Below are positions 16,414-30,260 of a stretch of DNA of 64,000 bases, piece by piece (position 1 is the stretch's first letter; each line of letters opens with the position of its first letter). The notes beneath the pieces were generated by a model, which was given only the letters and a program-made list of their open reading frames with translations, was not told the origin of the DNA and did not search any database. Origin of the DNA: an uncultured Nitrospirales bacterium (GTDB taxonomy: Bacteria > Nitrospirota > Nitrospiria > Nitrospirales > UBA8639); the NCBI GenBank assembly GCA_951812745.1, contig OX638327.1:806001-870000 (forward strand), read 5' to 3'. The position numbers were made by a program, and so were the translations under genes.

Positions 16414-19400
16414 TCAAAAGCCCCAGGTAACCTGGCAGTGGAGGCCTTGGTTAACCGGCTGGGGCCCGGCGGCTTTCTGGCGCTGGCCTTCCAGGCTGAT
16501 GTGCAACCCGGAAAACCGGCGTCCACCCACCTGCCAGCGGGTCCCCAGCCGCCACGTCCGGGCCGGGCCCGCCTCCAGCACTGTGCCCGCATAGGGGGTC
16601 ACCACCCCCAGGTTCCCCGGGGCGAACGCATAGCCGACCTCCGCGTGCAGCCGCCCGCCGGGAGCCTGCCGCGGGCCCGCCGGGGTCGGCCGCGTCCACA
16701 AGCCTTCCACCCCGCTCGTGGTCGCCCCCCAGGCTGGAGTGAGCGTTAAGGCCAAGCCCTGGCCTAGGCCGCCCGGCGCCAGCCGCACCGTGCCCCAGGC
16801 GCCCCATTCTTGATACGCACTGGCTGCATGCGCCAGCAGCACCCGGCCTCCCGCGTCCACCGTCAGCCCGTAGCCCGGGTCCGCGTACTGCACCTGGCCG
16901 CCGACCTCCACCCCCAGGCCCGTCTCCGCATCCCCCCAGTCATGCCGCAGGCCGATTTCCGCAGCCGGCCGGAGAGTCCGGCCTTCGGCCCACGTCACGG
17001 CCCGCGAGCCTTCCAGGACCAGCCGCAGCCGATGCACCGCCGCGTCCTCGGCCGGGAGGAGCCCCGCCGCGGCGGCGTCCGCCGTCATCCGCAGGAGCAT
17101 GACATCCGTCCGCGTGGCCAGTTCAAAGCCCCCGTGCTCCGGGGCGGCCAGCAGGATTCCCCGGCTCCCCACCGCCCCCAGCAGCAGCGCCGTGTCCGTG
17201 GTCGCGCGCACCCCCGGCGCCGGCGCCACGGTCAACTCGCCCCAGCCGTACCCGACCAGGCCCCACACCATCAGCCGGTCGGTGACCGCATACCGCAGGT
17301 AAGGCTGGAGACTCGTCAGGGTCTGCTCAAGTGCCCCGTCGTAGGCCTGGGCCCCGGCTTGGGTCAGCGCGCCGTCGCCCCGGCTGTGCGACACCGCGAC
17401 CCCGGCCAGCCACCGATCCCAGGCCCCATCCACCCCCAGGGTCCCCGTCAGCACGTCCCCGTCCACGGCCAGGGCGTCGGCGTGCCCGTTAAACTGCAGG
17501 GTCCCGACCCGGCCCCAGGCCGTCACCCGCGGGCCCGGCGCGGCCGCCGGGTCGCGCCCGAGGGTCAGCTGGAAGGTACTGCCCACCAACAGGTCGCGGA
17601 GCGTCACTTGGCGGGGCTGCACCTGGCGCGGGTCCGGGCCCCGGCCGGCTGCGCCGGCCGAGTCCGCCCCCCACCGGCTGGACCCCGGCGCGGCCCCCGC
17701 CCCGCGCTCGCCCAGCGGCAGCCGATAGCCGCCCACCGTCACCTGCGACCCCTGCCCCGGCGCGGCGCGCAACCGCGTGCCCACCGCGTCCGTTACCTGT
17801 GTCGCCACCGTCCGCCCAAACCGCGCCAGCCACGCCGTCAGCCCCGGGGCCGACACGACCCGCCGCGTCACCGTCACCGTGTAGGTCTGCCGGGTCAGGG
17901 TGTCCACGCCGGTCACCGTCACCTGCAACGTGGTGCGGCCGAAGGGCAGGGCCACGTCGTGCGCCGCCGTCGCCGCGTCCGCATCCGCGGGGGTCAGCGC
18001 CACCGTCGCCGCGGGGTCGGTGGGCGTCGCCGTAAGCGTGAGGTCCGCCACGTGGGACGCCACGGTCGCCGTATAGCTCAGCCGGTCCGGGGCGAACGCC
18101 GGGGTCAGCGGGACCCCAGGCAGCGTCAGTTCACTAAGCGTCGCGTCGACCAGAACCGTCAAGTACTCGCCTTGGAACGCCGCCACGGCGTTACCCGGCA
18201 CGTCCTGCAAGGGGGCCCGGCCGGGGGTGTAGGTCACCGTCCCCCGCGTGTTCCCCGCCACCGCCCGCGTCAGCGTGAGCGTCACCGTGGCCCCGTCGAG
18301 CGCGACGTCGGTCACTGTATAGTCGCCGGGGCGCTCCACGGCAATTGCGAAAGCCTCCGGCGCCGGGACCGCGTGCGAGGCCAAGGGCTTACTGAACGTC
18401 AGCACCAGCGCCCGGGAGGCCTGCGCCAGATCGAGCTCCGCCGCCTCGAGGGTCGGCGGGACCCCGTCCACCTGGTGCCCGGCCTGGGCCGGGACGGCCG
18501 GGTGGGGCACCCGGGCGTCCCGGGTCCCCACGAGGTTCTGGAGCGTGGCGCCGGCCGGCCGCGTCAGCGCGTTCGCGGGAATCGCGAGTCCGTCGGAGTC
18601 CACGTCGCCTGCCTTGATAGTATAGGCGAACACGACGTGCGGCGTGCCCGTGCCGCGGACGTAGGCGGCCGGCGCCCGCGTGCCGCCGAGGTCGAGCGTG
18701 AGCTGCGGCGTCCCCTGCACGGTGACGGCTTCGCTGAACGTCACCGTCACCTCCACCGTGGCGCCCCTGATGTAGGTATCGTCATCCGGGCTCCCGTCCG
18801 CCGCGTCGGGGTCCGAGGTCAGCGCCAGCGCGACAATCGTCGGCTCCCCCGTGGGGCGCGCCTGCGCCGTGTTCGACACCGCGCCCACGCCCAACTCGTT
18901 CACCGCGCGCACTTCGAACGTGTAGGTGGTGCCGTTGGTCAGCCCCCTCACCGTGTAGCGCGTAACATACGCCTCCCCGGAGGCGCTGGCCGGAATGGGG
19001 GTCCACGCCGCCCACGTGCCGCCGTCGTCGAGGCTCTGCCGGTACTGGTGCTCGGTGAGCGGGCGGCCCCCGTCGCCGCCCCGGGTCCACGCCAGCGTCA
19101 CCTGGGCGTCGTCCGCCTCCGCCGTCAGGTTCGTCGGCGGAGGCGGCACCGTCACCAGCTGCGGCGTCGCGCGCGCCGACGCCGACGCCGACCCCGCGCC
19201 CAACTCGTTCACCGCCCGCACTTGGAACAAATACTCCGTGTCGTTGGTCAGCCCCGTCACCGTGTAGCGCGTAACATGCGCCTCCCCGGGAGCGCTGGCC
19301 GGGATGCGGGTCCACGCCGCCCACGTGCCGCCATCGTCAGCGCTCTGCCGGTACTGGTGCTCGGTGAGCGGGCGCCCCCCGTCACCACCCCGGCGCCACG

Positions 19401-22400
19401 CCAGCCGCACCTGGGCATTCCCCGGCGTCGCGGTCAGGGTCGGCGCCGCGGGTGGGGTCGGCGCCACGGGCGTCGCGCGCGCCGACGCCGACGCCGACCC
19501 CGCGCCCAACTCGTTCACCGCCCGCACTTGGAACAAATACTCCGTGCCGTTGGTCAGCCCCGTCACCGTGTAGCTCATGGCGTGCGGCCCGTTCGCTTGG
19601 CTGTCCGGGATACGGGTCCAGTCGCTGAACGCCCCGCTCCCGGCCTGCTGCCGGTACTGGTGCTCGGTGAGCGGGCGCCCCCCGTCACCGCCGCTGTCCC
19701 ACGCCAGCCGCACCTGGGCGTCGTCCGATTCCGCCGTCAGGTTCGTCGGCGAGGGCGGCACCGTCACCGGTCGCGGCGTCGCACTCACCGACGCCGACCC
19801 CGCGCCCACGCCCAACTCGTTCACCGCCCGCACTTGGAACAAATACTCCGTGCCGTTGGTCAGCCCCCTCACCGTGTAGCTCGTAAAATTCACCCCCCGG
19901 GGGGCGCTGGACGGGATGGGGATCCACGCCCCCCACGTGTGGCCGGCGTCAGCGCTCTGCCGGTACTGGTGCCTGATGAGCGGGCGGCCCCCGTCACCAC
20001 CGCTGCGCCACGCCAACCGTACCTGGGCGTCGTCCGCCTCCGCCCTCAGGTTCGTCGGCGGAGGCGGCACCGTCACCCGCCGCGGCGTCGCACTCGCCGA
20101 CTCCGACGCCGCGCCCGCGCCCACGCCGTTCCCCGCACGCACCTCGAACTCGTACGTCGTGCCGTTGGTCAGCCCCGTCACCGTGTAGCTCATGGCGTGC
20201 GGCCCGTTCGCTTGGCTGTCCGGGATACGGGTCCAGTCGCTGAACGCCCCGCTCCCGGCCTGCTGCCGGTACTGGTGCTCGGTGAGCGGGCGCCCCCCGT
20301 CACCGCCGCTGTCCCACGCCAGCGTCACCTGGGTGTTCCCCGACGTCGCCGTCAAGTTCCGTGGCGCGGAGGGCCCCGTCGCCGGCGTCGCACTCACCGA
20401 CGCCGACGCCGCGCTCGCGCCCACGGCGTTCACCGCGCGGACCTCGAACGTGTACCGTGTGCCGTTGGTCAGCCCCGTCACCGTGTAGCTCGTCTCGTGC
20501 GCGCCCGCCGGGGCGCTGTCCGGGATAGGGGCCCAGTCGTCAACCGCCCCGCTCCCGGCCTGCTGCCGGTACTCGTGCCCGGTGAGCGGGCTACTGCTGT
20601 CGTCGCCGCGGGTCCACGCCAGCGTCACCTGGGCATTCTTCGGCGTCGCCGTCAGTTCCTGTGGCACGGAGGGCACCCCCGGCGTCGCGCTCTTCGCGTC
20701 AGATGCCGGGCCCTCGCCCACGGCGTTCACCGCGCGCACGTCGAACATGTACGGCGTGCCGTTGGTCAACCCCGTCACCGTGTAGCTCATAAAATGCGTC
20801 CCCCCGGGGGCGCTGTCCGGGATAGGGGTCCAGTCGCCGCCCCCCCCGCTCCCGACCTGCTGCCGGTACTCGTACTCGACGATCGGGCTCTGACCAGAGC
20901 CACCGCTGAGCCACGTCAACATCACCTCGGTGTCCCCCGCCCTCGTCCCTAGGGCCTGCGGCGCGGGCGGCGCCCCCGGCGTCACCCGCGCCTCGTTCGA
21001 CGCCGGGCTCTCACCCACGGCGTTCACCGCGCGGACAGTGAACGTATACGTGGTGCCGTTGCTCAGCCCCGTCACCGTGTAACTCGTCCCGTGCCTCCCC
21101 GCCGGGGCGCTGTCCGGGATAGGGGTCCAGTCGCCGCCCCCCCCGCTCCCGACCTGCTGCCGGTACTCGTGCCCGGTGAGCGGGCTCCCGCCCTCGCCGC
21201 GGGTCCACGTCAGCCGCACCTGGGTGTCGTCCGGCGCCGCGGTCAGGTCCCGCGGCACGGCCGGCGCCCCCGGCGTCGCCCGCGCCGCGTTCGACGCCGG
21301 GCTCGGGCCCACGGCGTTCACCGCGCGGACTTCGAACGTGTACGGCGTGCCGTTGGTCAACCCCGTCACCGTGTAGCTCATAAAATGCGTCTCCTTCAGG
21401 GCGCTGTCCGGGATAGGGGTCCAGTCGCCGCCCCCCCCGCTCCCGACCTGCTGCCGGTACTCGTGCCCGGTGAGCGGGCTCCCGCCCTCGCCGCGGGTCC
21501 ACGTCAGCCGCACCTGGGTGTCGTCCGGCGCCGCGGTCAGGTCCCGCGGCACGGCCGGCGCCCCCGGCGTCGCGCTCGCCGCGGGCGACGCCAGGCCCTC
21601 GCCCACGGCGTTCCCCGCGCGGACTTCGAACGTGTACGTCGTGCCGTTGCTCAGCCCCGTCACCCTGTAGCTCGCAACATGCGCCCCATCGGCGGCGCTG
21701 TCCGGGATGGCGCTCCACTCCGTCCACATGCTGCCGCTGTCGGTGCGCTGCCGGTACTGGTGTCCGGTGAACGGGCTGCCCCCGTCACCGCCGCGGGTCC
21801 ACGCCAGCGTCACCTGGGCATTCCCCGGCGTCGCCGTCAGGCTCGGCGGCGCGGCCGGCACCATCCTCGGCGTCGCGCTCGCCGCGGGCGACGCCAGGCT
21901 CGCGCCCGCGGTGTTCCCCGCGCGGACCTCGAACGTATACGTCGTGCCGTTACTCAGCCCCGTGACCGTGTAGCTCGCCCCGTACACGCCCGCCGGGGCG
22001 CTGTCCGGGATGGCGCTCCACTGCGTCCACGTGCTGCCGCTGTCGGTGCGCTGCCGGTACTGGTGCCCGGTGAGCGGGCTGCCCCCGTCGTCGCCGCGGG
22101 TCCACGCCAGCCGCACCTGGGCATTCCCCGGCGTCGCCGTCAGGCTCGGCGGCGCGGCCGGCACCGTCCCCGGCGTCGCGCTCGCTGCGGGCGACGCCGC
22201 GCCGTCGCCCTCGGCGTTCCCCGCGCGGACCTCGAACGTAGAGGAGGTGCCGTTGGTCAGCCCCGTCACCGTGTAGCTCTTCCCGTGCGCCCCCGCCGGG
22301 GCGCTGTCCGGGATGGCGGTCCACTCCGTCCACATGCTGCCGCTGTCGGTGCGCTGCCGGTACTGGTGCCCGGTGAGCGGGCTCCCGCCGTCGCTGCCGC

Positions 22401-25400
22401 GGGTCCACGTCAGCCACACCTGGGCGTTCCCCGGCGTCGCCGTCAGGCTCGGCGGCGCGGCCGGCACCGTCGTGGCCACCGTCGGCGTCGCCCTCGCCGG
22501 GCTGGACGCCGCGCCGTCGCCCTCGGCGTTCCCCGCGCGCACTTGGAACGTATAGCTCGTGCCGTTGGTCAAGCCCGTGACGATGTAGCTCCCCACGTGC
22601 GCGCCCTGAGGGGCGCTGTCCGGGATGGGGAGCCAGGTGTCAAACACCCCGCTCCCCGCCTGCTGCCGGTACTCGTGCCCCGTGAGCGGGCTGCCCCCGT
22701 CCCCGCGGCTGGTCCACGCCAGCCACACCTGGGTGTTCCCCGCGGTCGCCGTCAGGCTCGGCGGGGGCGGCACCGCTACCGGCGTCGCGCGCGTGCCGGC
22801 CGACGGCCCGCCGGGGCCCACGATGTTCACCGCGCGCACGTAGAACGAATACCTGATGCCGTTGGTCAGCCCGCTCACCGTGTAGCTCGCCCCGTGCGCG
22901 CCCGTAGCGGCGCTGTCCGGGATGGCGGTCCAGGCCCCAAACGCCCCGCTCCCCGCCTGCTGCCGGTACTCGTGCCCGGTAATCGGACTGCCCCCGTCGG
23001 CGCCTTGGGTCCACGCCAGCGTCACCCGGGTGTCGCCCGCGGTCGCCGTCAGGGCCGGCGGCGCGAGCGGCGCCCTCGCAGTCGTCGGCGTCGCGGTCGC
23101 TCGGTTCGACACCGTGCTCTCGCCCACGGCATTCACCGCGCGGACCACAAAACCGTACGTCGTGCCGTTGCTCAGGCCCGTCACCGTGTAGCTCATAAAA
23201 TGTGTCCCCTCGGGGGCGCTGTCCGGGATGCGGGTCCAGTCGCTGAACACCCCGCGCCCCGCCACCTGCCGGTACTCGTGCCGGGTGAGCGGGCTGCCCC
23301 CATCGTCGACGCGGGTCCACGCCAGCGTCACCCGGGCGTTGCCCGTGGTCGCGGTCAGGCTCGGCGACCCGCGCGGGATCATCGTCACCGTCGACGTCGG
23401 CGTCGAGGCCACTTGCCTCGACACCGGGCTGGGGCCCAGGGCGTTCACCGCGCGGACTTGGAACGTATAACTCGTGCCGTTGGTTAAGCCCGTGACGGTG
23501 TAGCTCGTCCCATTCAAGCCCTCGGGGGCGCTGGCCGGGATGGGGAGCCAGTTGTCGAACACCCCGCTCCCGGCCTGCTGCCGGTACTGGTGCCCGGTAA
23601 TCGGACTGCCCCCGTCACCGCCGTTGGTCCACGCCAGCGTGACCCGGGTGTTGCCCGCGGTCGCCGTCAGGGTTGTCGGCGCGGCCGGCACCGTTGCCGG
23701 CGTCGCGCTCGCTGGGGGCGAGGCCGGGCTCCGGCCCTCGGCGCTTACCGCACGCACGTGGAACGTATACCTCGTGCCGTTGGTCAAGCCCGTGACGGTG
23801 TAGCCCATCCCGTTCTGGCCCGCCGGGGCGCTGGCCGGGATGGCGGTCCACATGCTCACCGCCCCGCTCCCGGCCTGCTGCCGGTACTCGTGCCCGGTAA
23901 TCGGACTGCCCCCGTCGTCGCCTTGGATCCACTTCAGCGTCACCTCGGTGTCGCCCGGGCTCGCCGTCAGGCTCCGCGGCACAGCCGGCACGGTCACCGG
24001 CGTCGCGCGCGCTGCGGGTGACGCCGCGCCAGGGCCCACGGCGTTCCCCGCGCGCACTTGGAACGTATACGTGGTGCCGTTGGTCAGCCCGCTCACCGTG
24101 TAGCTCGTCCTGTGCGCGCCGTCGGCGGCGCTGGCCGGGATGGGGGTCCAGGCCGCCCACGTGCCGGCGACGGTGCTCACCCGGTACTCGTGCCCGGTGA
24201 GCGGACGGCCCCCGTCGCCACCGCTGGCCCACGTCAGCCACACCTGGGCGTTCCCCGCGGTCGCCGTCAGGGTCGGCGGCGCCGGCGGGACCGTCGCGGT
24301 CAGCATCGGCGTCGCACTCGCCGGGCTCGCCGCCGCGCCGTCGCCCACGGCGTTCCCCGCGCGCACTTGGAACGTATACGTGGTGCCGTTGGTCAAGCCC
24401 GTGACGGTGTAGCTCGTAAAATGCGCCCCCGTCGGGGCACTGGCCGGGATGGGGGCCCAGGCGCCGAACACCTCGCTCCCGGCCTGCTGCCGGTACTCGT
24501 ACCCGGTGAGCGGGCGGCCCCCGTCGCCGCGGCTGGTCCACGTCAGCCACACCTGGGTGTCGCCCGCACTCGCCGTCAGAGTCGGCGGGGGCGGGCTCGT
24601 CGCCGGCGTCGCATCCGCGTTGCCCGACGGCCCGCCGGGGCCCACGGCGTTCACCGCGCGCACTTGGAACGTGTAGCTCGTGCCGTTGGTCAGCCCGCTC
24701 ACCGTATAGCTCGTGGCGTGCGCCTCGTTCCCCGCGCTGTTCGGGATCGCGGTCCAGTCCGCCCACATGGTGCCGGTGTCGGTGCTTTGCCGGTACTCGT
24801 GCCTGGTGAGCGCGCTGCCCCCGTCGTCGCCTTGGGTCCACGCCAGCGTCACCCGGGTGTCGCCCGCACTCGCCGTCAGGGCCGTCGGCGCGGCCGGGGG
24901 ATCCGCGGTCATCGGCGTCGTGGACGCTGAGTGCTCCCAATCGCCGGGGCCCACGGCGTTCACCGCGTGCACCCGGTAACTGTAGGTCCTGCCGTTGCGC
25001 AGCCCCGTCACCGTGTAGCTCGAAAAATGCGCCCCATCGGGGCCGCTGTCCGGGATCGCGGTCACCGGCCCCCTACCGTCGCCCTCGTATTGCTGGTACT
25101 CGTGCCTGGTGATCGGGCTGCCCCCGTCGTGGCCGTTGGTCCACTCCAACTTCACTTGGGTGTGGCCCGCGGTCGCCGTCAGGTTCGTCGGCCTGGCCGG
25201 CGCCGTTGCGGCTGGCGTCGCGCTCGCTCCGAGCGACGCCGCGCTCTCGCCCACGGCGTTCCTCGCGCGTACTTGGAACGTGTATTCCACGCCGTTGCTC
25301 AGCCCCGTCACCGTGTAGCTCGTGGCGTTCGCCTGGTTCACCGCGCTCAAGGGGATCTCGCTCCACGTCGCCCCCGTGCCGCCTTGCCGGTACTCATGCC

Positions 25401-27183
25401 CGGTGAGCGCGCTGCCCCCGTCGTCGCCGTGGGTCCACCTCAGCGTCACCTGGGTGTGGCCCGCGGTCGCCGTCAGGGCTGTCGGCGCGGCCGGCACCGT
25501 CGCGTGCGCCGGCGTCGCGCTCGCTTGGGGCGATGGCGCACCTAGGCCCACGGCGTTCCCCACGCGTACTTGAAACGTGTATTCCACGCCGTTGCTCAAC
25601 CCCGTCACCGTGTAGCTCGTGGCGTTCGCCCCCGTCGCCGTGCTGTTCGGGATCGCGGTCCACGTCGTCCACATGTCGCCCTCGTCGGTGCTTTGCCGGT
25701 ACTCATGCCCGGTGAGCGGGCTGCCCCCGTCCTCGCCGGGGGTCCACGCCAGCATCACCTGGGTGTGGCCCGTGGTCGCCGTCAGGGCTGTCGGCGCGAC
25801 CGGCACCGTCGCGGCGGGCGTCGCGCTCGCTGCGGGCGACGCCGCGCTCTCGCCCTCGGCGTTCCTCGCGCGCACCGCGAACATGTATTCCACGCCGTTG
25901 CTCAGCCCCGTCACCGTGTAGCTCGCCCCGTTCGCCCCCGTCGCCGCGCTGTTCGGGATCGCGGTCCAGTCGCTGAACTCCTCCCCGCTCGCCGCCTGTC
26001 TGTATTCGTGCCCGGTGAGCGGGCTGCCCCCGTCGTCGCCGTGGGTCCACCTCAGCGTCACCTGGGTGTGGCCCGCGGTCGCCGTCAGGGCTGTCGGCGC
26101 GGCCGGCGCCGTCGCGGCGGGCGTCGCGCTCGCTGCGGGCGACGCCGCGCTCTCGCCCTCGGCGTTCCTCGCGCGCACCGCGAACATGTATTCCACGCCG
26201 TTGCTCAGCCCCGTCACCGTGTAGCTCGTGGCGTTCGCCCCCGTCGCCGTGCTGTTCGGGATCGCGGTCCAGTCGCTGAACTCCTCCCCGCTCGCCGCCT
26301 GTCTGTATTCGTGCCCGGTGAGCACGCTGCCCCCGTCCTCGCCGTGGGTCCACGCCAGCATCACCTGGGTGTGGCCCGCGGTCGCCGTCAGGGCTGTCGG
26401 CGCGGCCGGCACCGTTGCCGGCGTCGCGGTCACCTGGTTCGACTCCGCGCCGGGGCCCTCGGCGTTCACCGCGCGTACATAAAACGTGTACGTCGTGCCG
26501 TTGCTCAGCCCCGTCACCGTGTAGCTCGTGCCGTTCGCCCCCGTCGCCGCGCTGTTCGGGATCGCGGTCCAGTCGCTGAACTCCTCCCCGCTCGCCGCCT
26601 GTCTGTATTCGTGCCCGGTGAGCGCGCTGCCCCCATCGTCGCCGTGGGTCCACCTCAGCGTCACCTGGGTGTGGCCCGCGGTCGCCGTCAGGGCTGTCGG
26701 CGCGGCCGGCGCCGTTGCCGGCGTCGCGGTCACCTGGTTCGACTCCGCGCCGGGGCCCTCGGCGTTCACCGCGCGTACATAAAACGTGTACGTCGTGCCG
26801 TTGCTCAGCCCCGTCACCGTGTAGCTCGTGGCGTTCGCCCCCTCCGCCGCGCTGTTCGGGATGGCGGTCCACGTCGCCCCCGTGTTGTCGCCGCCGTCGA
26901 TGCTTTGCCAGTACTCATGCCCGGTGAGCGGGCTGCCCCCGTCGTCGCCTTGGGTCCACGCCAGCATCACCTGGGTGTTCCCCGCGGCCGCCGTCAGGGT
27001 CGGCGCGGCCGGCGCCGTCTGCGCCGCGGCCGGCCAGGCGACGGCCAGCAGCGCCGTCATCGCCAGCAGCGCGGCCACGGCCACGCGGCCCTCGCCCCCT
27101 TGCCCGGGCTGCGCCGGCCAACGCCGGAACGGCACTCGTTTCACAACGGGTGCCCACATGCCTGGTACGCGCCTGACGTCCAT
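16414..27183 (-). CDS. giant fibronectin type III repeat autotransporter, putative adhesin
   Basis: About 3,589 residues in one intact frame. A long basic N-region leads to the signal segment VAVAALLAMTALLAVAWPAAAQ. Then 27 fibronectin-III modules of about 100 residues follow (nt 18850 to 27015), each with patterns like PTALTATAGHTQVTLRW, GDDGGSPLTGHEYRQ and SYTVTGLSNGTTYTF. After these come a region with VTFSEAVTVQGTPQL and VDGVPPTLEAA resembling a SwmB-like domain, a cadherin-like sandwich (LSELTLPGVPLTP), and from about residue 3200 an autotransporter barrel ending in VTWGF. Only one Cys is evident. The ATG at 27183 has GGGGAGG just upstream; a TTG seven codons earlier is the alternative. 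It is likely a surface adhesin or matrix protein. GC is visibly higher than in neighbouring genes. Confidence 0.9.
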   Translation of the reverse strand: MDVRRVPGMWAPVVKRVPFRRWPAQPGQGGEGRVAVAALLAMTALLAVAWPAAAQTAPAAPTLTAAAGNTQVMLAWTQGDDGGSPLTGHEYWQSIDGGDNTGATWTAIPNSAAEGANATSYTVTGLSNGTTYTFYVRAVNAEGPGAESNQVTATPATAPAAPTALTATAGHTQVTLRWTHGDDGGSALTGHEYRQAASGEEFSDWTAIPNSAATGANGTSYTVTGLSNGTTYTFYVRAVNAEGPGAESNQVTATPATVPAAPTALTATAGHTQVMLAWTHGEDGGSVLTGHEYRQAASGEEFSDWTAIPNSTATGANATSYTVTGLSNGVEYMFAVRARNAEGESAASPAASATPAATAPAAPTALTATAGHTQVTLRWTHGDDGGSPLTGHEYRQAASGEEFSDWTAIPNSAATGANGASYTVTGLSNGVEYMFAVRARNAEGESAASPAASATPAATVPVAPTALTATTGHTQVMLAWTPGEDGGSPLTGHEYRQSTDEGDMWTTWTAIPNSTATGANATSYTVTGLSNGVEYTFQVRVGNAVGLGAPSPQASATPAHATVPAAPTALTATAGHTQVTLRWTHGDDGGSALTGHEYRQGGTGATWSEIPLSAVNQANATSYTVTGLSNGVEYTFQVRARNAVGESAASLGASATPAATAPARPTNLTATAGHTQVKLEWTNGHDGGSPITRHEYQQYEGDGRGPVTAIPDSGPDGAHFSSYTVTGLRNGRTYSYRVHAVNAVGPGDWEHSASTTPMTADPPAAPTALTASAGDTRVTLAWTQGDDGGSALTRHEYRQSTDTGTMWADWTAIPNSAGNEAHATSYTVSGLTNGTSYTFQVRAVNAVGPGGPSGNADATPATSPPPPTLTASAGDTQVWLTWTSRGDGGRPLTGYEYRQQAGSEVFGAWAPIPASAPTGAHFTSYTVTGLTNGTTYTFQVRAGNAVGDGAAASPASATPMLTATVPPAPPTLTATAGNAQVWLTWASGGDGGRPLTGHEYRVSTVAGTWAAWTPIPASAADGAHRTSYTVSGLTNGTTYTFQVRAGNAVGPGAASPAARATPVTVPAVPRSLTASPGDTEVTLKWIQGDDGGSPITGHEYRQQAGSGAVSMWTAIPASAPAGQNGMGYTVTGLTNGTRYTFHVRAVSAEGRSPASPPASATPATVPAAPTTLTATAGNTRVTLAWTNGGDGGSPITGHQYRQQAGSGVFDNWLPIPASAPEGLNGTSYTVTGLTNGTSYTFQVRAVNALGPSPVSRQVASTPTSTVTMIPRGSPSLTATTGNARVTLAWTRVDDGGSPLTRHEYRQVAGRGVFSDWTRIPDSAPEGTHFMSYTVTGLSNGTTYGFVVRAVNAVGESTVSNRATATPTTARAPLAPPALTATAGDTRVTLAWTQGADGGSPITGHEYRQQAGSGAFGAWTAIPDSAATGAHGASYTVSGLTNGIRYSFYVRAVNIVGPGGPSAGTRATPVAVPPPPSLTATAGNTQVWLAWTSRGDGGSPLTGHEYRQQAGSGVFDTWLPIPDSAPQGAHVGSYIVTGLTNGTSYTFQVRAGNAEGDGAASSPARATPTVATTVPAAPPSLTATPGNAQVWLTWTRGSDGGSPLTGHQYRQRTDSGSMWTEWTAIPDSAPAGAHGKSYTVTGLTNGTSSTFEVRAGNAEGDGAASPAASATPGTVPAAPPSLTATPGNAQVRLAWTRGDDGGSPLTGHQYRQRTDSGSTWTQWSAIPDSAPAGVYGASYTVTGLSNGTTYTFEVRAGNTAGASLASPAASATPRMVPAAPPSLTATPGNAQVTLAWTRGGDGGSPFTGHQYRQRTDSGSMWTEWSAIPDSAADGAHVASYRVTGLSNGTTYTFEVRAGNAVGEGLASPAASATPGAPAVPRDLTAAPDDTQVRLTWTRGEGGSPLTGHEYRQQVGSGGGGDWTPIPDSALKETHFMSYTVTGLTNGTPYTFEVRAVNAVGPSPASNAARATPGAPAVPRDLTAAPDDTQVRLTWTRGEGGSPLTGHEYRQQVGSGGGGDWTPIPDSAPAGRHGTSYTVTGLSNGTTYTFTVRAVNAVGESPASNEARVTPGAPPAPQALGTRAGDTEVMLTWLSGGSGQSPIVEYEYRQQVGSGGGGDWTPIPDSAPGGTHFMSYTVTGLTNGTPYMFDVRAVNAVGEGPASDAKSATPGVPSVPQELTATPKNAQVTLAWTRGDDSSSPLTGHEYRQQAGSGAVDDWAPIPDSAPAGAHETSYTVTGLTNGTRYTFEVRAVNAVGASAASASVSATPATGPSAPRNLTATSGNTQVTLAWDSGGDGGRPLTEHQYRQQAGSGAFSDWTRIPDSQANGPHAMSYTVTGLTNGTTYEFEVRAGNGVGAGAASESASATPRRVTVPPPPTNLRAEADDAQVRLAWRSGGDGGRPLIRHQYRQSADAGHTWGAWIPIPSSAPRGVNFTSYTVRGLTNGTEYLFQVRAVNELGVGAGSASVSATPRPVTVPPSPTNLTAESDDAQVRLAWDSGGDGGRPLTEHQYRQQAGSGAFSDWTRIPDSQANGPHAMSYTVTGLTNGTEYLFQVRAVNELGAGSASASARATPVAPTPPAAPTLTATPGNAQVRLAWRRGGDGGRPLTEHQYRQSADDGGTWAAWTRIPASAPGEAHVTRYTVTGLTNDTEYLFQVRAVNELGAGSASASARATPQLVTVPPPPTNLTAEADDAQVTLAWTRGGDGGRPLTEHQYRQSLDDGGTWAAWTPIPASASGEAYVTRYTVRGLTNGTTYTFEVRAVNELGVGAVSNTAQARPTGEPTIVALALTSDPDAADGSPDDDTYIRGATVEVTVTFSEAVTVQGTPQLTLDLGGTRAPAAYVRGTGTPHVVFAYTIKAGDVDSDGLAIPANALTRPAGATLQNLVGTRDARVPHPAVPAQAGHQVDGVPPTLEAAELDLAQASRALVLTFSKPLASHAVPAPEAFAIAVERPGDYTVTDVALDGATVTLTLTRAVAGNTRGTVTYTPGRAPLQDVPGNAVAAFQGEYLTVLVDATLSELTLPGVPLTPAFAPDRLSYTATVASHVADLTLTATPTDPAATVALTPADADAATAAHDVALPFGRTTLQVTVTGVDTLTRQTYTVTVTRRVVSAPGLTAWLARFGRTVATQVTDAVGTRLRAAPGQGSQVTVGGYRLPLGERGAGAAPGSSRWGADSAGAAGRGPDPRQVQPRQVTLRDLLVGSTFQLTLGRDPAAAPGPRVTAWGRVGTLQFNGHADALAVDGDVLTGTLGVDGAWDRWLAGVAVSHSRGDGALTQAGAQAYDGALEQTLTSLQPYLRYAVTDRLMVWGLVGYGWGELTVAPAPGVRATTDTALLLGAVGSRGILLAAPEHGGFELATRTDVMLLRMTADAAAAGLLPAEDAAVHRLRLVLEGSRAVTWAEGRTLRPAAEIGLRHDWGDAETGLGVEVGGQVQYADPGYGLTVDAGGRVLLAHAASAYQEWGAWGTVRLAPGGLGQGLALTLTPAWGATTSGVEGLWTRPTPAGPRQAPGGRLHAEVGYAFAPGNLGVVTPYAGTVLEAGPARTWRLGTRWQVGGRRFSGLHISLEGQRQKAAGPQPVNQGLHCQVTWGF
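18850..27015 (-). repeat. tandem array of 27 fibronectin-III-coding units of about 300 bp
   Basis: The units diverge in part, but several are near-identical: a shared stretch beginning GCGGTCCAGTCGCTGAACTC recurs at about 25961, 26261 and 26561, exactly 300 bp apart. Another long match at 21127 recurs 294 bp later at 21421, and 19576 matches 20191. This points to recent unit duplication or gene conversion. Confidence 0.85.
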
Positions 27184-27228
27184 ATCCCTCCCCAGGGTTC
27201 TCAAGATGAACGATTGAACCGGGGCGGT

Positions 27229-29379: not shown

Positions 29380-29883
29380 ATGGCCCTCGAAACACCAACA
29401 AAGCCGTCTCTGCCAGTCGATGCAGCCTTCATGCGTGAAGCGCTGCTCGAAGCGGAACGAGCCGCTTCCGACGGCGAAGTGCCCGTGGGAGCCATCCTCG
29501 TGCATGAGCATACCATCATCGCCAGGGGACGAAACACCAGAGAACGCAAGCAAGACCCCACTGCCCATGCGGAACTCATCGTGATTCAGAATGCCGCCCA
29601 AAAGTTGCAATCCTGGCGATTAACTGGCACAACCATGTACGTGACGCTAGAACCCTGTCTCATGTGTACCGGCGCCATGCTACAAGCGCGGATTCCTCGT
29701 TTGGTCTTTAGCACCTGGGACCCCAAAGCCGGGGCCTGTGGGTCCCTGTTCACGCTCCACGAGGATCACCGCTTAAATCACCACATCGCCGTCACGCACG
29801 GTATATTGGAAAACGAGAGTCGTAACCTGCTGCAACGGTTCTTTCAACGGCTCAGGCAGCAGCAGCCTCTCACCATGAACTGA
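29380..29883 (+). CDS. tadA: tRNA adenosine(34) deaminase
   Basis: Converts A34 to inosine in tRNA-Arg(ACG). The cytidine-deaminase-fold Zn site is complete: TAHAELIVI supplies His and the proton-shuttling Glu, and PCLMCTGAML supplies the two Cys. The sequence VPVGAILVHEHTIIARGRN and the later DPKAGACGS, where Zn-site loop residues diverge slightly, match TadA. The length, 167 residues, is usual. It ends 14 nt before tRNA-Ser, on the same strand, so both may share a transcript. Confidence 0.94.
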   Translation: MALETPTKPSLPVDAAFMREALLEAERAASDGEVPVGAILVHEHTIIARGRNTRERKQDPTAHAELIVIQNAAQKLQSWRLTGTTMYVTLEPCLMCTGAMLQARIPRLVFSTWDPKAGACGSLFTLHEDHRLNHHIAVTHGILENESRNLLQRFFQRLRQQQPLTMN

Positions 29884-29897
29884 GTGTACCTCTATGC

Positions 29898-29985
29898 GGA
29901 GAGGTGCGAGAGTGGCCGAATCGGGCGGTCTCGAAAACCGTTGACCGGCAACGGTCCGTGGGTTCGAATCCCACCCTCTCCGCCA
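29898..29985 (+). tRNA. tRNA-Ser (CGA)
   Basis: An 88-nt type II tRNA. Acceptor GGAGAGG pairs with CCTCTCC, the anticodon loop is CTCGAAA (anticodon CGA), a long variable arm follows (TTGACCGGCAACGGTCC), the T-loop is TTCGAAT, and the encoded end is GCCA. Confidence 0.95.
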
Positions 29986-30044
29986 TAACGCAAAAAGCCG
30001 TGTAATACGAAGTGGAGCCATGGCCACATGCAATAGCTGGAAAA

Positions 30045-30181
30045 GAGGGTGGGATGCGAACGGGGGTTTTGAAGGGGGTGTGCCCCCTTCAGGGGGTGAC
30101 CGGCGCCTTGCGCCGGCGCGAGGGGGCTTGGCCCCCTAGCGAGAGCGCGGCGTCCGCGCGACTTCGAATTTCCCACCCTCT
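30045..30181 (+). other. four-hairpin structured element closed by a stem made from tRNA-Ser 3'-end sequence
   Basis: GAGGGTGGGA (30045-30054) can pair with TCCCACCCTC (30171-30180), reinforced by CGAA/TTCG inside. Within this closing stem are four consecutive perfect hairpins: GAAGGGGG/CCCCCTTC (30071-30090), CCGGCGC/GCGCCGG (30100-30116), AGGGGGC/GCCCCCT (30121-30137) and GCGCGG/CCGCGC (30145-30159). The 3' closing strand, TCCCACCCTCTCCGCCA, is a second copy of the end of the tRNA-Ser just upstream. It may be an RNA element, an integration scar or a mobile palindrome. No protein-coding content is seen in the 326-nt gap. Confidence 0.6.
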
Positions 30182-30260
30182 CCGCCATAACGGCAAAAGC
30201 CGTAGCGCCTCGAATGGCGCCACCATCGCACCCACTCGCCGGAAAAGCGGGGGGGGGGGG
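30166..30260 (+). repeat. degenerate direct repeat of tRNA-Ser 3' end and trailer
   Basis: This stretch repeats 29966-30056 at a distance of about 200 nt: CCCACCCTCTCCGCCATAACG, then CAAAA-GCCGT, CGAA, TGG-GCCA and finally GGAAAAG-GGG-GGGATG in the same order. It ends in a run of 12 G (30249-30260). Confidence 0.65.

Follow-up and report, generated by a model that had tools for sequence, protein, structure and literature searches.

Putative structured RNAs with arms antisense to their host tRNAs form a repeat family behind tRNA genes of Nitrospirales

The window analysed here, a 64,000-nucleotide stretch of an uncultured Nitrospirales genome, contains a TadA-like deaminase gene (29380–29883) that ends 14 bases ahead of a tRNA-Ser(CGA) gene. 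Co-transcription of this gene, which resembles that of the tRNA-editing enzyme TadA, with the tRNA is possible. Behind the tRNA and on the same strand lies an element (30044–30187) composed of an arm antisense to the tRNA (I), a core of four hairpins (HP1 to HP4) separated by linkers, and an altered second copy of the tRNA 3′ end (D):

29898–29985, plus strand: host tRNA-Ser(CGA) with encoded CCA (ARAGORN; Rfam RF00005, 51.7 bits)
29986–30043, plus strand: fast-evolving spacer (mean pairwise identity 0.60 among six orthologues, versus 0.86–0.90 in I, core and D)
30044–30061, plus strand: I, antisense arm AGAGGGTGGGATGCGAAC, matching 29962–29979 of tRNA-Ser(CGA) at 17 of 18 nt
30062–30069, plus strand: linker L1, GGGGGTTT, conserved in alignment A2 and unpaired in the model
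30070–30091, plus strand: HP1, TGAAGGGGG-TGTG-CCCCCTTCA, with both-side changes at 6 of 9 pairs among 61 distinct sequences
30092–30099, plus strand: linker L2, GGGGGTGA, in which GGGGTGAC is invariant across the 15-sequence alignment
30100–30116, plus strand: HP2, Watson-Crick here, elsewhere usually an internal loop of purine mismatches
30117–30141, plus strand: HP3, CGC-G-AGGGGGC-TTG-GCCCCCT-A-GCG, whose outer pair (91/151 of A3) varies between GC, AU and CG
between HP3 and HP4, plus strand: short GGA linker, placed by the order of parts in the element
30145–30159, plus strand: HP4, variable in sequence with pairing preserved (both-side changes at 6 of 6 pairs)
between HP4 and D, plus strand: GAC, placed by the order of parts in the element
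30163–30187, plus strand: D, second copy of the 3′ portion of the host tRNA (T-loop to CCA), altered by an insertion of 1–2 nt ahead of CCCACC and by C in place of G53

The targets of I in the upstream tRNA are the T-loop, the 3′ strand of the T-stem and, over part of its length, the acceptor 3′ strand. Repetition of the tRNA 3′ end extends over 33 nt (29969–30001 and 30171–30203, 94% identical), and the fold in the window is more stable than those of 200/200 dinucleotide shuffles (z = −4.8). An earlier note on this DNA had described a pairing of GAGGGTGGGA (30045–30054) with TCCCACCCTC (30171–30180) around four perfect hairpins, competing with a second pairing inside tRNA-Ser. The enclosing pairing is present in the sequence and the four hairpins exist, but HP3 carries one G.A mismatch. 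The tRNA segment ATCCCACCCTC also pairs with I; it begins at 29968, one base before the position given earlier, and the part of it repeated at 30171 is limited to the final 10 nt. Both competing pairings of I, with the tRNA and with D, are real in the sequence. Elsewhere in the window, a 3,596-codon open reading frame on the minus strand (16414–27204) encodes many fibronectin-like repeats and an autotransporter-like end; a tRNA-Gly(GCC) called by ARAGORN within it (26683–26758) was missed by Rfam and is probably false.

The complete unit, beyond the hairpins alone, recurs behind tRNAs across the order Nitrospirales at a level far exceeding chance, and the element in the window is apparently one member of an undescribed repeat family of that order. 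In its general form, the host tRNA is followed by a spacer of 40–80 nt, an I of 15–19 nt, the four-hairpin core with its conserved linkers, and D, with I antisense to the host T-arm and, in Ser and Leu, also to the 3′ acceptor strand. By-eye numbering places the start of I and D at the T-loop (position 53/54) in Ser and Leu tRNAs, which have a long variable arm; for Gly, Thr, Asp, Ala and Met hosts the start falls near position 45, within the variable loop. D is often unfaithful, with one or two extra bases right after the T-loop in Ser and an altered T-stem 5′ strand in Gly, Asp and Ala, and changes in D thus recur in independent isotypes. HP2 is missing from the variant of most Nitrospiraceae.

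In this genome, 6 of 42 tRNAs have I (all four Ser, Leu-GAG and Gly-GCC), and all others score 9 or less. The unit is present behind Ser(CGA), as a single copy, and behind Leu(GAG); Ser(GGA) has a unit whose HP3 holds another, related group of hairpins, the unit of Ser(TGA) is shortened, and at Ser(GCT) I alone remains. Three tandem units spaced 183–190 lie behind tRNA-Gly(GCC), and two in the relative G011. A covariance model of the core (R1) matched 64 of 118 relatives, and in a phylum sample of 296 genomes it matched 63, which with few exceptions belong to the same order; three close relatives (G002, G008, G010) gave no R1 match, which implies that the element is dispensable. The related four-hairpin group nested in the HP3 loop was seen both at Ser(GGA) of G000 (L153, 6212–6321, where R1 scores 49.8 bits) and in G027 (L015), and has a distinct GC-rich consensus, GGGGATGTTTCCCCTTCGAGGGGTTA...AGGCCCAGT...

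A scan of 84,980 species with a pattern of HP3 only, blind to tRNAs, returned 85 stretches with 84 distinct core matches, of which 73 follow a tRNA on the same strand at a distance of 61–338 nt. The remainder comprise seven at contig ends, two adjoining tRNA-Thr 3′ halves, one by a broken tRNA-Gly and one chance match. Host tRNAs across the scan were Ser, Leu, Gly, Thr, Asp, Ala and Met, and the matches include Candidatus Nitrospira defluvii (FP929003) and N. moscoviensis (NZ_CP011801). All but three stretches are Nitrospirota by title. Two of the exceptions carry Nitrosospira in their titles, probably through mislabelling; one of these contigs (L238) includes the 3′ half of a tRNA-Thr together with I and D. 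The third (L229) comes from a deltaproteobacterium and lacks all three of tRNA, I and D. Orphan cores, likewise with none of these parts, occur in the stretches L144 and L146.

Our analysis of 61 distinct cores revealed changes on both sides of 20 of the 32 core pairs. Double-change cells numbered 207, compared with 57.8 in shuffles (0/500 shuffles reached the observed value) and at most 20 in slid structures, and 15 seed sequences with a hand-made structure gave the same covariation result; the alignment was fitted to the model, and as the sequences are related, these counts do not represent independent events. The helices contain 32 G.T versus 3 A.C combinations (p = 4e-7), the pattern expected if the tRNA-sense strand folds as RNA, although part of this excess could result from transcription-linked mutation. 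Rfam models at the gathering score matched tRNAs only, and down to E = 10 there were just weak, overlapping or chance matches, with no T-box match. Compensatory changes in homologues, whose absence the earlier note had named among the grounds for refutation, are present, and its suggestion of a previously undescribed structured RNA is well supported by the covariation, the lack of any non-tRNA Rfam match at the gathering score, the G-U excess on the tRNA strand and a degree of conservation equal to that of neighbouring coding DNA. The element is very probably a structured RNA and, judging from sequence, is likely to be co-transcribed with the tRNA. No promoter or terminator consensus was found near the tRNA, and an intrinsic terminator was rejected because no U-tract was found.

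Conservation along the locus follows the parts of the element. Among six Ser(CGA) orthologues, mean identity in the tadA coding sequence (0.87) is matched by that of I (0.86), the core (0.87) and D (0.90); the tRNA stands at 1.0, the spacer at 0.60 and the DNA past D at 0.28. Gene order is preserved from tadA through D. Shortened and decayed copies are common, as they would be if the element were neutral debris, an old inverted or direct duplication of tRNA ends that persists without function. However, I, core and D are conserved like tadA while the spacer and downstream DNA are not, and the strong covariation also speaks against neutrality; this explanation is largely refuted by the two lines together, and we regard it as very improbable.

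The elements appear to be inherited with their hosts. The nearest neighbour of a core is nearly always a core of the same isotype from another species. At the Leu locus, the element is complete in three species and not seen in three others, and in four it has been cut back to I, with the point of loss of core and D varying; decay at the Gly locus is similar. Loss proceeds from the distal end, with the tRNA side as the fixed end, and this, together with the clustering of cores by isotype across species, makes recent active mobility unlikely. A reading as a MITE or dispersed mobile repeat was rejected on similar grounds, as nearly all copies lie behind tRNAs and cores group by isotype between genomes.

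These patterns also bear on the possibility that the unit is a DNA element inserting at tRNA 3′ ends, comparable to an integron cassette or an island attachment site, with D as the displaced copy and the hairpins as a single-stranded recombination site. Such an origin would be consistent with the direct repeat of the tRNA 3′ end that flanks the unit, the tandem units at tRNA-Gly (three here, two in G011), the sharing of one core by several unrelated isotypes, and the non-syntenic DNA past D, where islands occur (in L141, an integrase-like frame seen by eye only). Like attC stems, the I:D helix is an imperfect hairpin with extrahelical bases, and a repeat of the tRNA 3′ end is shared with tRNA-targeted integrative elements. 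Unlike these, the Nitrospirales unit has no gene, shows no evidence of excision and is inherited with its tRNA. Isotype clustering of the cores is against such an element, the tandem units are accounted for by unequal crossing-over between repeats, and the G.T excess indicates that it is the tRNA strand that folds, an asymmetry that does not favour an attC or tyrosine-recombinase site. No Y1 transposase (PF01797) was detected in the carriers G000, G005, G012 and G028, and a non-autonomous REP/RAYT or IS200/IS605 reading was rejected for that reason. The window element had no blastn match in phage and plasmid records, nor did the core pattern match in IMG/VR. We therefore consider a DNA element improbable, and the earlier note's alternative of a mobile palindrome, in the sense of a currently mobile element, is not supported, on the same evidence: inheritance of cores with the tRNA isotype, a genome lacking Y1 transposase, and the absence of matches in phage, plasmid and viral sequences.

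Both I and D are matched to the host. Their own isotype was the best fit for I in 59 of 72 elements and for D in 70 of 72, and the match also holds for Asp, Ala and Met hosts; the score of I as antisense to its own tRNA averages 15.2, whereas shuffled upstream sequence never exceeded 11. In a test without anchoring on the tRNA, I showed higher complementarity to the tRNA than to D in 48/48 elements. At 135 of the 142 sites that distinguish tRNA from D, I agrees with the tRNA, a figure biased by I having been located through its match to the tRNA. Predicted duplex energies were −30.8 kcal/mol for I:tRNA versus −24.1 kcal/mol for I:D, with I:tRNA the stronger in 57/60, and joint folds of tRNA and element (ViennaRNA) placed I on the tRNA in 55 of 72 and on D in 2 of 72. 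The gain of joint over separate folding was 9.6 kcal/mol with the cognate element and 3.8 kcal/mol with an element of another isotype, under an energy model that omits tRNA tertiary structure and modifications. D as the conserved partner of I was rejected because I follows the tRNA, and the better fit of I to the tRNA (48/48; duplex 57/60) identifies I as an arm antisense to the tRNA, for which D competes less strongly. One joint fold also showed L1 and D forming a second T-stem; compared by eye, L1 is apparently constant across host tRNAs, and the idea was dropped.

The preference of I for the tRNA, with D weaker, is what a switch would require, and is equally expected from a simple inverted copy under selection. 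That I follows the tRNA (48/48) fits the earlier note's suggestion of a switch in tRNA folding, with I:tRNA rather than I:D pairing predicted by ViennaRNA for most precursors. The same trailer RNA might instead act without any switching by I, either in trans, as an I-core-D small RNA (for example as a sponge, or by binding tRNA 3′ fragments), or as a processing or termination domain that insulates the tRNA 3′ end. Covariation, G.T excess and conservation fit this alternative equally well, D terminates in a tRNA-like CCA, and the E. coli annotation lists rttR, at tyrT/V, as a small RNA. Taken alone, however, it leaves unexplained why I matches the tRNA over D in 48/48 elements and why I survives in shortened copies, and we judge it unlikely, though less so than a DNA element.

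The closest architectural parallel, and the only other case of this layout encountered in the analysis, is the tyrT/tyrV locus of E. coli (NC_000913), where 19 nt copies of the tRNA 3′ end, a spacer of about 58 nt, an arm antisense to the T-arm, hairpins and a 3′ end copy occur in tandem. The antisense arm of tyrV, GGGGAAGGATGAGAAGCTTCGA, extends over 22 nt (0/2000 shuffles), and the predicted fold has an I:D stem. As in the Nitrospirales unit, tRNA 3′ end copies bound hairpins after a spacer in the tyrT repeats/rtT; the tandem repetition of the tyrT repeats (about 180 bp) has its counterpart at the Nitrospirales tRNA-Gly(GCC), and the locus in the window has a single unit. In E. coli tyrT one tRNA is served, whereas the Nitrospirales family spans at least seven amino-acid isotypes at many loci, and the cores have no likeness in sequence or covariance model: RF00391 (rtT) had no match to E = 10 over 29880–30260, and R1 had none on the E. 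coli tyrT/tyrV locus (L168). On sequence grounds, the Nitrospirales element is built like the tyrT repeats but lies outside RF00391, and it belongs to a new family, serving several tRNAs, of a kind about which little is known. In E. coli, processing of the tyrT transcript releases rtT RNA, which has been linked to the stringent response. T-box riboswitches are also RNA devices that pair with and read tRNA, acting in trans from mRNA leaders; this likeness as tRNA-pairing RNA is accompanied by no match of the Nitrospirales element to Rfam T-box models. A literature search on rtT/RttR/tyrT repeats and Nitrospira tRNA repeats, with subscription tyrT papers outside its range, returned nothing on point. 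In 3′ETS-leuZ, the 3′ external transcribed spacer of a tRNA operon is used as an RNA regulator that pairs with the sRNA RyhB (PMC6191717); it resembles the Nitrospirales element as a tRNA trailer with a second role, which is putative in Nitrospirales, and as described has neither an antisense arm to its own tRNA nor a tRNA 3′ end copy (PMC6191717).

The position and strand of the unit, its host-matched I and D, its covarying hairpins, the purifying selection on it and its inheritance with the host tRNA are established. From these, the explanation that we favour, and consider probable, is a Nitrospirales-wide family of structured RNAs in tRNA 3′ trailers, with a tyrT-like layout and an unrelated core, in which each element would gate its own tRNA. 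In this explanation tRNA and element would be made as one transcript, and I would invade the T-arm and 3′ acceptor strand of the tRNA. D, made later and representing an imperfect tRNA 3′ end, would then compete for I, closing the four-hairpin domain and freeing the tRNA. The element could thereby control whether or when its own tRNA matures, and the excised I-core-D piece might constitute a small RNA. A switch of the tRNA operated by I is plausible, if somewhat less likely than not. A full switch would not be essential at every locus, because shortened elements keep I and lose core and D. Transfer RNAs fold within milliseconds, so invasion by I, made about 60 nt later, may be kinetically blocked.

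If functional, the elements would represent tRNA-gene-specific RNA control inside the tRNA's own precursor, mainly for serine tRNAs, and this control would be present in nitrite oxidisers and comammox Nitrospira. The long-known and unexplained tyrT repeats of E. coli would gain a definable anatomy (antisense arm, hairpin core and altered tRNA 3′ end), and the role of such repeats would become testable in two unrelated lineages. A broader and more speculative reading, which we hold to be rather unlikely, is that a trailer antisense arm and a decoy tRNA 3′ end, re-matched to each tRNA, form a general bacterial device, a two-fold switch of tRNA maturation that arose or persisted in both Nitrospirota and enterobacteria (tyrT).

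The elements would also be a source of false positives when islands and partial tRNAs are annotated. Two species with about 86% identity elsewhere share a 1.28 kb stretch at 98% identity (L154 4964–6237 versus L153 6361–7637), which begins exactly at the tRNA-Ser 3′ end and lies behind different tRNA-Ser genes (Ser-GGA in G000, Ser-CGA in G006). Recent transfer or island traffic at tRNA 3′ ends, at D, is suggested by this stretch; inspection of its right end found no second tRNA copy, and it therefore does not demonstrate site-specific integration. At a tRNA-Gly(CCC) of G309 (L141/L248), the 5′ part of the tRNA runs into I-core-D with no 3′ half of its own, and an integrase-like reading frame, identified by eye, lies just past D.
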